Positions 32,250-56,216 of a DNA stretch of 56,650 nucleotides are shown here, piece after piece. The notes under the pieces are model-generated. The model worked only from the letters and a program-made list of their open reading frames with translations, was not told where the DNA came from and made no database searches. Each line of letters starts with the position of its first letter. Positions within the stretch are counted from its first letter, which is position 1. The stretch is from contig JAHJQV010000031.1 of NCBI GenBank assembly GCA_018819105.1, forward strand, positions 1 through 56,650. Direction: 5' to 3'. The stretch is from Gammaproteobacteria bacterium (lineage in GTDB: Bacteria > Pseudomonadota > Gammaproteobacteria > Xanthomonadales > Wenzhouxiangellaceae). A program made the translations under genes and the position numbers.

Positions 32250-33824
32250 CTATTTCAGCACCACGTCAAACTGCTCCTGCAGATAGTGATCGTCTGGCTG
32301 AAAACGGATCTGTTTGTGGATCGAATCTTCGATTTCGGCCACCACTGCGGTGTATTCATCCAGCATCTTCTCCACCACCCCCACCGCCGCTATGACGATC
32401 ACCTGGGGCGCATCGAACTGACGCACGGCGCGGGTCACCTCGCGGAAGATTTCGTAACAGATGCTGTCGGCGGTCTTTACCCGACCACTGCCGGCACAAA
32501 CCCTGCACGGCTCGCAGATACGCTGGGCCAGGCTTTCGGTGGTGCGTTTGCGGGTCATTTCCACCAGGCCCAGCGGGGAGAAATCATGAATCACCGTGTG
32601 GGCATGATCCGGTTCCAGCGCACGCGCCAGCGTTTGCAGCACCTGCTCACGATGTTCCGGTTCGTACATGTCGATGAAATCAATGATGATGATGCCGCCG
32701 AGGTTGCGCAGTCGCAGCTGCCTGGCGATGGCCTGGGCCGCCTCCAGATTGGTGCGGAAGATGGTTTCCTCCAGATTGCGGTAACCGACATAGGCACCGG
32801 TGTTGACATCAATCGTGGTCATCGCCTCGGTCTGATCAAAAATCAGATAGCCGCCGGATTTCAGTTTGACATCGCGCTGCAGCGCCTGATCGATTTCCTC
32901 ATCGACCCCATACAGATCAAAAATCGCCCGTTCGCCCTGATACAGATAGAGGCGGTCTGACCAGCCATCGAGAAACTTGCCGGCAAAATCACGCATGCCG
33001 CTGAGCAGATCCGGGGCATCCACCAGCACGCGGTCCACCTCGGTGTGCATGCGATCGCGCAGGGTCCGGTATGGCAGCGTCAGCTCCTCATAGATGCAGG
33101 ATCCTGGTGCCATGCTCTGCTGACGCTGATACACCACCCGCCACAGACGCAGCAGATAATCCATGTCGGTAAGCAGTTCGGCAGCACTGGCACCTGCGGC
33201 ATTGGTGCGGGCGATGAAACCCATTGCCGGGGGCGCGCCAGTGGCCGCCTCATTGCCGGCAACGCTGAAGTATTTGGGCATCAGTTGCTGCGCATGTTCG
33301 CCCATGATCCGGCGCAGGCGTTCGCGTTCCTGCTCATCCTCGATGCGCAGGGAAACTCCGATGTTGTCTGCCAACGGCAACAGCACCAGCAGGCGCGACG
33401 GTATGCTGACCTGTGCCGACAAGCGTGCCCCCTTGCTGCCGATGGCGTCCTTGATCACCTGCACGGTGATGGTCTGGCCGGACTGCAGCAGTTCGGTGAT
33501 GCAGGGCGCTTCCAGCTCCGCTGCAGCTGCCGGCACCGCAGCAGGTTTTGTGCTGGCAGACGCCTCCAGTTGGTCATCGCTGACGGCCGCCGGGCGGGGT
33601 GTGATCAGATCGCGCACATGCAGAAAGCCGGTTCGCTCCAGACCGATGTCGACAAAGGCGGCCTGCATGCCTGGCAGCACGCGGCGCACGGTACCGATGC
33701 AGATGTCCCCCACGTGGCTGGCACGATGGCCACGCTCCACATGCACCTCCTGCACGGTACCGTTGCTGACGACGGCCACCCGGTTTTCCCCGGCGACCGC
33801 GTTGATCAGTATTTCATCTGTCAT
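32250..33824 (-). CDS. rng: ribonuclease G
   Basis: Endoribonuclease of the RNase E/G family, involved in 16S rRNA 5'-end maturation and mRNA decay. 524 residues from the ATG at 33824 (MTDEILINAVAG) against 489 in E. coli. An N-terminal S1-like domain (VGDICIGTVRRVLPGMQAAF) is interrupted by an Ala/Pro-rich insert of roughly 35 residues. The catalytic core (EAMTTIDVNTGAYVGYRNLE and IIIIDFIDM) holds the metal-binding aspartates, and CEPCRVC fits the zinc-link. The earlier frame start at 33863 lacks similarity. It starts 152 bases downstream of maf. Confidence 0.95.
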   Translation of the reverse strand: MTDEILINAVAGENRVAVVSNGTVQEVHVERGHRASHVGDICIGTVRRVLPGMQAAFVDIGLERTGFLHVRDLITPRPAAVSDDQLEASASTKPAAVPAAAAELEAPCITELLQSGQTITVQVIKDAIGSKGARLSAQVSIPSRLLVLLPLADNIGVSLRIEDEQERERLRRIMGEHAQQLMPKYFSVAGNEAATGAPPAMGFIARTNAAGASAAELLTDMDYLLRLWRVVYQRQQSMAPGSCIYEELTLPYRTLRDRMHTEVDRVLVDAPDLLSGMRDFAGKFLDGWSDRLYLYQGERAIFDLYGVDEEIDQALQRDVKLKSGGYLIFDQTEAMTTIDVNTGAYVGYRNLEETIFRTNLEAAQAIARQLRLRNLGGIIIIDFIDMYEPEHREQVLQTLARALEPDHAHTVIHDFSPLGLVEMTRKRTTESLAQRICEPCRVCAGSGRVKTADSICYEIFREVTRAVRQFDAPQVIVIAAVGVVEKMLDEYTAVVAEIEDSIHKQIRFQPDDHYLQEQFDVVLK

Positions 33825-39099: not shown

Positions 39100-39620
39100 A
39101 GGCGGGTTTCAATGTTGTTATCAGGGGTTGTTTGGCGGGCATGCCAGTTATCGAACTGACACACCCGCAAAGTGAGCACATCACATCCGCCCCATACCGA
39201 TCCTGCTGCTGTCAGTTGACAGCATTGAGCAGTGATGCTGAGTGGATGATTCGACACATCTTTGCGGTCGAGGGCAGGCACTCAGAAAAGCCTGGCCAAG
39301 TTGATGCTCTCAGTCCGGCAGGTCGAGTGAATGATTCATATTTATTCTAACAGAAACAGAGCCTCCATTCCTGTTCCTTGCCATCGTCATGTCACCCGCA
39401 GCATCCACAGGGACTGCACGGCGTCAACAGCATCTGCCAGGATGATCATCGCGCGCAGTAACCAGCGCAGCAGACAGCATCGTCACAGGCTGAACGCATG
39501 CCGTCTGCCTGCAACCACAATGCATTGCCGGGAGCATGAACCAGATCAGTGTGTTAGCAATGTTTGCGCACACCGACTGTTCACACCCTGCACCCGGCAA
39601 AAAAAATTTTGCCTGTGCAC
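39100..39620. other. non-coding interval between rnr and the tRNA-Leu promoter
   Basis: About 520 bases. The frames in it have no similarity that I recognise and no ribosome sites. It presumably holds the rnr promoter. The one clear element is the perfect palindrome at 39208-39223. Nothing else stands out. Confidence 0.6.
39208..39223. promoter_or_regulatory. perfect 16-base palindrome upstream of rnr
   Basis: GCTGTCAGTTGACAGC, a perfect inverted repeat about 110 bases before the rnr start. The TGTCA/TGACA half-sites with a two-base centre look like a dimeric repressor operator. The regulator is unknown. Confidence 0.35.
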
Positions 39621-39649
39621 TTGACTCTGCCTGACGGTGATAGCATCAT
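39621..39649 (+). promoter_or_regulatory. sigma-70-type promoter of the tRNA-Leu transcript
   Basis: TTGACT at 39621-39626, a 17-base spacer, and CATCAT at 39644-39649. Transcription would begin near 39656, just before the first hairpin of the leader. No other promoter is seen before tRNA-Leu(CAG). Confidence 0.55.
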
Positions 39650-39655
39650 AGTCAT

Positions 39656-39730
39656 GTCGAAGCGGGTTGCCCCCTTGCCCGCTTCACACGTGGCTGGGGT
39701 TTCCCCCTTGCCCCAGCCACACCTTTTTTA
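39656..39730 (+). ncRNA. double C-loop hairpin RNA or tRNA leader
   Basis: Two adjacent strong hairpins with nearly the same C-rich loop. The first has an 8-pair stem GAAGCGGG/CCCGCTTC (39659-39685) and loop TTGCCCCCTTG. The second has a 10-pair stem GTGGCTGGGG/CCCCAGCCAC (39690-39720) and loop TTTCCCCCTTG. A run of six T follows at 39724-39729. The loops are complementary to Shine-Dalgarno-like AAGGGGG. This could be a small regulatory RNA of about 75 bases, or a leader or attenuator for the tRNA that starts eight bases later. I do not know the family. Confidence 0.55.
39690..39729 (+). terminator. intrinsic terminator in front of tRNA-Leu(CAG)
   Basis: Ten-pair GC-rich stem with an 11-base loop, then ACC and six T. 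It ends eight bases before the mature tRNA 5' end, so the tRNA must be made by read-through or processing unless a promoter was missed. Confidence 0.65.
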
Positions 39731-39737
39731 ATCCCCG

Positions 39738-39824
39738 GCCGAGGTGGCGGAATTGGTAGACGCGCTAGCTTCAGGTGCTAGTGACCGCAAGGTCGTGGAG
39801 GTTCAAGTCCTCTCCTCGGCACCA
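39738..39824 (+). tRNA. tRNA-Leu (CAG)
   Basis: An 87-base class II tRNA with encoded CCA. The acceptor stem is GCCGAGG/CCTCGGC. The anticodon loop TTCAGGT lies within stem CTAGC/GCTAG and gives anticodon CAG. The long variable arm is present. It reads the frequent CUG codon. Confidence 0.97.
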
Positions 39825-39907: not shown

Positions 39908-39992
39908 GCCGGGGTGGCGGAACTGGTAGACGCGCTGGTTTTAGGTACCAGTGGGGCATCCCGTGGAGGTTCGAGTCCTCTCCCCGGCACCA
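39908..39992 (+). tRNA. tRNA-Leu (TAG)
   Basis: An 85-base class II tRNA with encoded CCA. The acceptor stem is GCCGGGG/CCCCGGC. The loop TTTAGGT in stem CTGGT/ACCAG gives anticodon TAG, which can read CUN codons. It lies 83 bases after tRNA-Leu(CAG), probably in the same transcript. Confidence 0.97.
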
Positions 39993-56153: not shown

Positions 56154-56216
56154 ACAACAGACCCGCCAAGCCTCTGTGGATTTCGATTCACAAGCTCAAA
56201 TCGAGCGGGTTTTTTT
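56154..56216 (+). ncRNA. AbiF-type small RNA upstream of an Abi_2 gene
   Basis: About 63 bases. The outer stem ACCCGC (56161-56166) pairs with GCGGGT (56205-56210). An inner stem forms by TCGAT (56183-56187) with ATCGA (56200-56204), or alternatively GATTT with AAATC. Seven T end the RNA at 56216. Its own promoter is just upstream and an Abi_2 gene begins 46 bases downstream. Structured RNAs in this position are known for abiF/Abi_2 loci, where the RNA can act as antitoxin to a HEPN toxin. The match to that RNA class is my inference from structure and context. Confidence 0.6.

Follow-up and report, generated by a model that had tools for sequence, protein, structure and literature searches.

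A conserved RNA with two C-rich hairpin loops lies ahead of tRNA-Leu(CAG) in two families of one bacterial order

The window analyzed here is a 56,650-nucleotide stretch of a gammaproteobacterial genome (contig JAHJQV010000031.1 of assembly GCA_018819105.1, referred to as G000), and the locus of interest lies among genes encoding RlmB, RNase R, PnuC, PurA, and HflC (rlmB, rnr, pnuC, purA, and hflC). There, a promoter-like site is followed by two hairpins with C-rich loops, a short U run, and two leucine tRNAs (Table 1). The sigma70-like site agrees with 9 of 12 consensus bases and is one of two such sites found, against 0.4 in shuffled sequences, which fits the promoter that a first-pass annotation, made from the letters of this DNA alone, had placed upstream of the hairpins. 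That annotation had also called two strong hairpins with the same loop motif, and both are confirmed by the fold and by a repeated 8-mer: positions 39650 to 39732 have a minimum free energy of −41.1 kcal/mol, where shuffled versions average −21.4 (z = −6.67) and none of 200 folds as stably, and CCCCCTTG occurs at 39670 to 39677 and at 39703 to 39710, once in each hairpin loop. A chance repeat was considered and set aside; taken alone, the 8-mer is no rarity (3 copies in the window against a mean of 2.0 expected), and what counts is that it falls in two hairpins that are conserved and covary. The third copy, at 33428, lies inside a 537-amino-acid reading frame, which we take to encode RNase G, and is not ahead of the start of that frame. 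The U run does end eight bases before the tRNA, as had been annotated.

Table 1. Features of the two-hairpin locus (positions are those of the window)
Feature	Position	Strand	Basis and remarks
Promoter-like site, TTGACT-17-CATCAT	39621–39649	+	Consensus scan; predicted start ~39655–39657
Hairpin 1, 8-bp stem GAAGCGGG/CCCGCUUC, loop UUGCCCCCUUG	39659–39685	+	Sequence, fold; matching helices covary in relatives
Hairpin 2, 10-bp stem GUGGCUGGGG/CCCCAGCCAC, loop UUUCCCCCUUG	39690–39720	+	Sequence, fold; covariation in relatives
U6 run, 3 nt past the hairpin 2 stem and 8 nt ahead of the tRNA	39724–39729	+	Sequence
tRNA-Leu(CAG), sole leucine tRNA with this anticodon found in the assembly	39738–39824	+	tRNA search
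tRNA-Leu(UAG), not constantly linked	39908–39992	+	tRNA search

Two further elements were seen in the window: an AT-rich inverted repeat (GGCAAAA/TTTTGCC, arms 4 A apart) at 39596 to 39613, just 5' of the −35 box, near the place where genome G001 has another, different AT-rich palindrome, and a match to the Rfam abiF RNA (RF03085) at 56162 to 56210, scoring 38.1 bits where the gathering score is 37.

In a DNA search of 61 genomes, matches in nine relatives from the window's family (f1) extend upstream from the tRNA into the hairpins. A covariance model (R1), built from 12 sequences of groups g2, g5, and g6 and leaving out G000, G001, G004, and G008, matched G000 at an E value of 2.5e-6 though trained without its sequence, gave one match each in 37 of 43 f1 genomes (G000 included), and matched 38 of 398 sampled genomes of the order. 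Six f1 genomes had no R1 match (G007, G023, G025, G033, G061, and G063); the contig of G007 begins inside the CAG tRNA, and the tRNA-Leu match retrieved from G023 is UAG. Draft contigs also break at or near the hairpins in three genomes with matches (G024, G027, and G035, at bases 1 to 54, 1 to 62, and 20 to 82 of their stretches), ending inside the RNA or just past it. A broadened model (R2), built from alignment A3 with 40 sequences, found the RNA in 59 of the 398 order genomes, all in two families (37 in f1 and 22 in f8), and found no member besides G000 among 369 genomes of the class and 398 of the phylum, all of these sets being draws from larger groups searched with stricter filters at which weak matches are lost. 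Applied to 80 named RNase R loci, R2 gave a single match, L035, and in a tree of RNase R the window sits on a very long branch with L035 as its nearest neighbor.

Rfam searches returned no family but tRNA at the hairpin locus of the window, and none at gathering score in 29 further loci (9 plus 20, some overlapping), and so lend no outside support to a small-RNA reading. Weak scores for related designs appeared at one place only, in G030 (L018, also L176), for ar14 (RF02344; 43.1 against 58.8) and ar7 (RF02342; 36.9 against 60). Two other subthreshold matches, mir-1502 in L034 (E = 0.15) and Chlorobi-1 in L191 (22.5 bits against 50), were taken as chance. From its sequence, we consider this to be a conserved RNA of two families in one order, absent from Rfam and of the C-loop small-RNA kind.

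The first-pass annotation had proposed aligning the region upstream of tRNA-Leu(CAG) in relatives, and doing so showed stems that covary beneath loops that stay constant. Of the 19 base pairs in alignment A3 (33 distinct rows used), 14 have changes at both partners, and the paired share of cells is 97.7%. In A4, which combines f1 and f8 and both tRNA-linked and free-standing copies (40 distinct sequences of 41 rows, without the three-loop RNAs), such two-sided changes occur in 17 of the 19 pairs, the paired share is 94.4%, and 0 of 500 shuffles reached any of five measures, with the reservation that the rows are related sequences and that each alignment, having been fitted to the structure of the model, leans towards it. 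In helix 3, which is hairpin 2, both-side changes fell in 8 of 10 pairs and 97.7% of the A4 cells were paired. Mean majority frequencies in A4 were 0.892 in loop 1 and 0.907 in loop 2, compared with 0.764 in the stems and 0.478 in other columns, and in all 40 distinct A4 sequences each of the two loops has four or more consecutive C; the loop core across A4 is UUCCCCCUU.

The RNA occurs in several settings. In architecture B, the layout of the window and of 10 f1 genomes (g1, g4, and g5), tRNA-Leu(CAG) begins 8 to 17 nt past hairpin 2. In architecture A, found in 23 f1 genomes (22 of g6 and one of g2), the two hairpins are followed by a third hairpin, then by a separate promoter, and then by the tRNA, which ARAGORN calls UAA in G065, near a contig end. 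The third hairpin was recognized by eye as terminator-like; T-tail scores after d'Aubenton-Carafa, available for 10 of the 23 loci, are 2.2 to 4.2 in nine and 0.26 in G014. In one more f1 genome, G003, the tRNA begins 957 nt downstream of the RNA. Family f8 has 25 places in 22 genomes: 15 of architecture B, with hairpins 3 to 8 nt from the tRNA in the 12 tails typed, 2 free-standing copies, and 8 places with a three-loop RNA. The free-standing two-hairpin copies (L191 in G166 and L201 in G092) have strong U tails, with scores of 4.81 and 4.99, and no tRNA within the surrounding 2 kb; G092 also has a tRNA-linked copy, L204. A gene for an M28 peptidase stands on one side of L201. The three-loop RNA (L193, L194, L197, L198, L199, L200, L202, and L206) is distinct, having three C-rich stem-loops, and in L198 it lies between a gene for a BioC-like methyltransferase (just below the model cut-off) and zapE, not beside polA.

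The first-pass annotation had tied its reading to conservation of the hairpins in close relatives and to a missing separate promoter for the tRNA; the hairpins are conserved, and architecture B, the window included, leaves no space for a separate promoter, whereas one is seen in architecture A (g6 and g2). An exact pattern for tRNA-Leu(CAG), which diverged copies would escape, has a single match in 19 of the 20 genomes checked and none in the incomplete G166, and in G000 this tRNA is one of 37 found. In architecture B, therefore, an apparently single-copy tRNA stands behind the hairpins. The second leucine tRNA, which had been thought to share the transcript, need not do so: tRNA-Leu(UAG) is on the same strand in the 8 listed g1, g4, and g5 loci with both genes, and 8 of the 9 such g6 loci have it on the other strand.

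We do not retain the initial call of hairpin 2 as an intrinsic terminator. In the window the stem is not directly joined to the U tract, from which it is parted by a 3-nt spacer, ACC; the tail score is 0.95, and the U run is not conserved among relatives of the same layout. Other g1 and g4 loci score 0.86 to 1.10, g5 loci 3.4 to 3.8 except G017 (0.62), and f8 loci 0.33 to 3.88; fair U tracts occur in g5 and some f8 loci, and the f8 genomes G098, G134, and G208 have the tails ACT, ATT, and ACTAAT, without a U tract. A terminator scan, limited to loops of 3 to 8, found none here. The U6 of the window would thus be a leaky terminator at best, and partial termination is possible in g5 and some f8 genomes. 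Because the U tails vary across relatives, the conserved feature is the linkage to the tRNA and not termination at hairpin 2. Across the B loci the gap from RNA to tRNA is 3 to 17 nt, without room for another promoter, and this layout, together with the single CAG tRNA, supports the earlier proposal that both come from one transcript, with the two-hairpin RNA of architecture B as a presumably co-transcribed 5' leader of tRNA-Leu(CAG). One could instead suppose that hairpin 2 and U6 form a functional terminator, ending a small RNA of its own, and that the tRNA has a concealed promoter within or past hairpin 2; in favor of this, U6 is present in the window, and TTTAAT at 39727 to 39732, immediately 5' of the tRNA, would be a candidate element. 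We think this improbable: the window offers 17 nt between stem and tRNA, or 8 nt past the U run, and several f8 loci offer 3 nt; a promoter scan between the hairpins and the tRNA in the window found none; and the tRNA promoters of architecture A, by contrast, have TATAAT in 23 of 23 cases, some with weak −35 boxes.

That the hairpins abut the tRNA in f8, and remain near it in two families, would also suit an element acting only in cis, such as an attenuator or a processing or protection device that sets the level of tRNA-Leu(CAG), with no function in trans. This we regard as unlikely, since the loops are kept throughout architecture A despite the intervening third hairpin and tRNA promoter, two copies are free-standing without a tRNA, U runs come and go among relatives, and no pairing between leader and tRNA is common to the loci. 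The two fold separately, with 0 or 1 crossing pairs, in 23 of 24 B loci, the exception being L008 with 16, and a leader-tRNA switch was set aside for this reason. A resemblance of hairpin 2 to the tRNA acceptor stem (GCCGAGG in g5, by eye) was also considered and set aside, as it seems not to track the tRNA sequence across genomes. Two near-identical loops on variable stems might also form a repeated binding site, making the hairpins a protein decoy or landing place instead of a base-pairing RNA, and to this we assign little weight. Sites for CsrA and RsmA carry a GGA motif, which by eye is missing from the loops. Known RNAs of such shape, moreover, are reported or predicted to base-pair (PMC3771888, PMC10746234).

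The first-pass annotation had likened the loops to those of sX13-like RNAs that mask ribosome sites. The likeness in design is supported; general masking of such sites is not. In 257 genes drawn from 456,650 bases of G000, with start codons called crudely, GGGG was not enriched between −17 and −4 (4 of 257 genes against 21 of 1,241 internal ATGs), AGGGG was found in 0 of 257 genes against 2 of 1,241, and GGGGG in 1 of 257 against 2 of 1,241. A genome-wide anti-Shine-Dalgarno role is unsupported in this sample, and without enrichment of G runs before starts the targets, if any, would be few or elsewhere. By analogy, the loops could act as those of sX13 do on 4G motifs.

The promoters differ among the architectures. 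The best-scoring promoter ahead of the RNA starts with TTGAC in all 49 tabulated loci, the window included. As a measure of the discriminator we used the mean G+C of the seven bases past the −10 box, in related sequences, with L177, L178, L180, L181, and L188 (whose RNA is identical to that of L189) left out of the table. Within architecture A, small-RNA promoters average 0.39 (n = 23) and tRNA promoters 0.92 (n = 23), without overlap; shared promoters average 0.82 in f8 (n = 14), where most rows count two or three bases of the RNA itself among the seven, and 0.44 in f1 architecture B (n = 10), and the free-standing f8 copies average 0.14 (n = 2). The 18 tRNA promoters of G000 scoring at least 9 average 0.65, including that of Leu(CAG) at 0.43, a value that is not unique to it because the Gly GCC promoter and one Met promoter share it; the distance from the Leu(CAG) promoter to its tRNA, 88 nt, is the largest of 35 tabulated in G000. 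A GC-rich discriminator is a feature associated with stringently controlled promoters of stable RNAs, and the pattern hints that fusion may place the tRNA under a different control.

Upstream of the −35 box, TCAC occurs at 21 to 22 nt in 17 of 53 rows, all from related genomes of f1 g6 (e.g., L160 to L172), and GTGA at 13 to 14 nt in 5 of 6 g5 rows; the motif was not seen in the window, and it could be an activator site. In a PurA tree (30 genomes, one gene, with the G001 and G003 rows partial), f8, with 8 rows that are all of architecture B, falls beside f1. Within f1, the B-type groups g1 and g4 join g3 (support 93/80), and the B-type g5 is nested among A-type g6 and g2, several forks near g5 being moderately supported. 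The starred branches of this tree force at least two changes of architecture.

Conservation, covariation, loop constancy, the two architectures, the single CAG tRNA, and the free-standing copies can all be read from the sequences. The explanation we favor, with a probability of roughly 0.6, is that the window encodes a C-loop small RNA like sX13 or ar14, fused here to tRNA-Leu(CAG) in one precursor; its expression, release by RNase P, and action in trans are what we infer. Under this explanation one promoter would give hairpin 1, hairpin 2, and tRNA-Leu(CAG) as a single precursor, and some transcripts may stop at the weak U run. A cut by RNase P at the 5' end of the tRNA, as expected from established tRNA maturation, would release an RNA some 80 nt long, whose loops, with the core UUCCCCCUU, would be available to pair with G-rich segments of other RNAs. 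A bolder version, which we put forward only tentatively and hold to be rather doubtful as a whole, is that a trans-acting small RNA and the bacterium's only leucine tRNA with the CAG anticodon come from one precursor, that RNase P matures both, and that the governing promoter has been rewired more than once, being GC-rich and tRNA-type in the f8 fusion, split into two separate promoters in architecture A, and AT-rich and small-RNA-type in the fusion of g5 and the window's lineage. If true, growth-rate control of tRNA would or would not extend to how much of a regulatory RNA is made. The linked, uncoupled, and free-standing forms are a ready-made set of natural cases in which to ask whether the small RNA is purposely linked to tRNA supply, and the locus is a case in which RNase P, and not a terminator, may define the 3' end of a small RNA.

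Excision of a regulatory RNA from a tRNA precursor has a precedent in 3'ETS-leuZ, a tRNA 3' spacer RNA that acts as a sponge. The RNA described here would likewise be cut from a tRNA precursor, and it differs in being a 5' leader with two stable hairpins and in existing also as a free gene. The small RNAs RrA, RrB, and RrF of Escherichia coli rRNA operons, which are made by read-through, follow the first of two rRNA terminators, and are reported to bind Hfq and CsrA, are similar in lying within a stable-RNA precursor transcript, whereas the RNA of the window precedes a tRNA instead of following an rRNA terminator (PMC8144298). Narrow term searches of open-licence literature, covering titles and the starts of abstracts, returned no description of a small RNA ahead of a tRNA.

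C-loop small RNAs are known from distant bacteria (sX13 and ar14), and a similar design is here joined to what is apparently the only tRNA of its kind. In alphaproteobacterial ar14/NfeR1 the hairpins share an identical C-rich loop motif on highly different stems, and constant C-rich loops on varying stems link the window's RNA to both ar14/NfeR1 and ar7; the ar14 loop is CCUCCUCCC, present three times, whereas the loops here are UUGCCCCCUUG and UUUCCCCCUUG (PMC10746234). The Xanthomonas RNA sX13 has an unstructured 5' region and three C-rich apical loops (4C, 4C, and 5C) on stable stems, lies downstream of polA, represses targets independently of Hfq through its 4C loops and 4G motifs in mRNAs, and is reported only in Xanthomonadaceae (PMC3771888). 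The three-loop RNA of f8 is nearer to sX13 in shape than the two-hairpin RNA is. Membership of the two-hairpin RNA in sX13, ar14, or ar7 was considered and rejected, given its position away from polA, its two loops, its other loop motif, and its scores below gathering. With sX13 it shares stable stems with short C-rich apical loops, and UCCCCCU of sX13 loop 3 recurs in the loop of hairpin 2; it differs in having two C-loops, in standing ahead of tRNA-Leu(CAG) and not by polA, and, in the window, in being without a clear terminator of its own (PMC3771888). What is unusual is that the RNA is coupled to tRNA-Leu(CAG) and that this coupling has switched.
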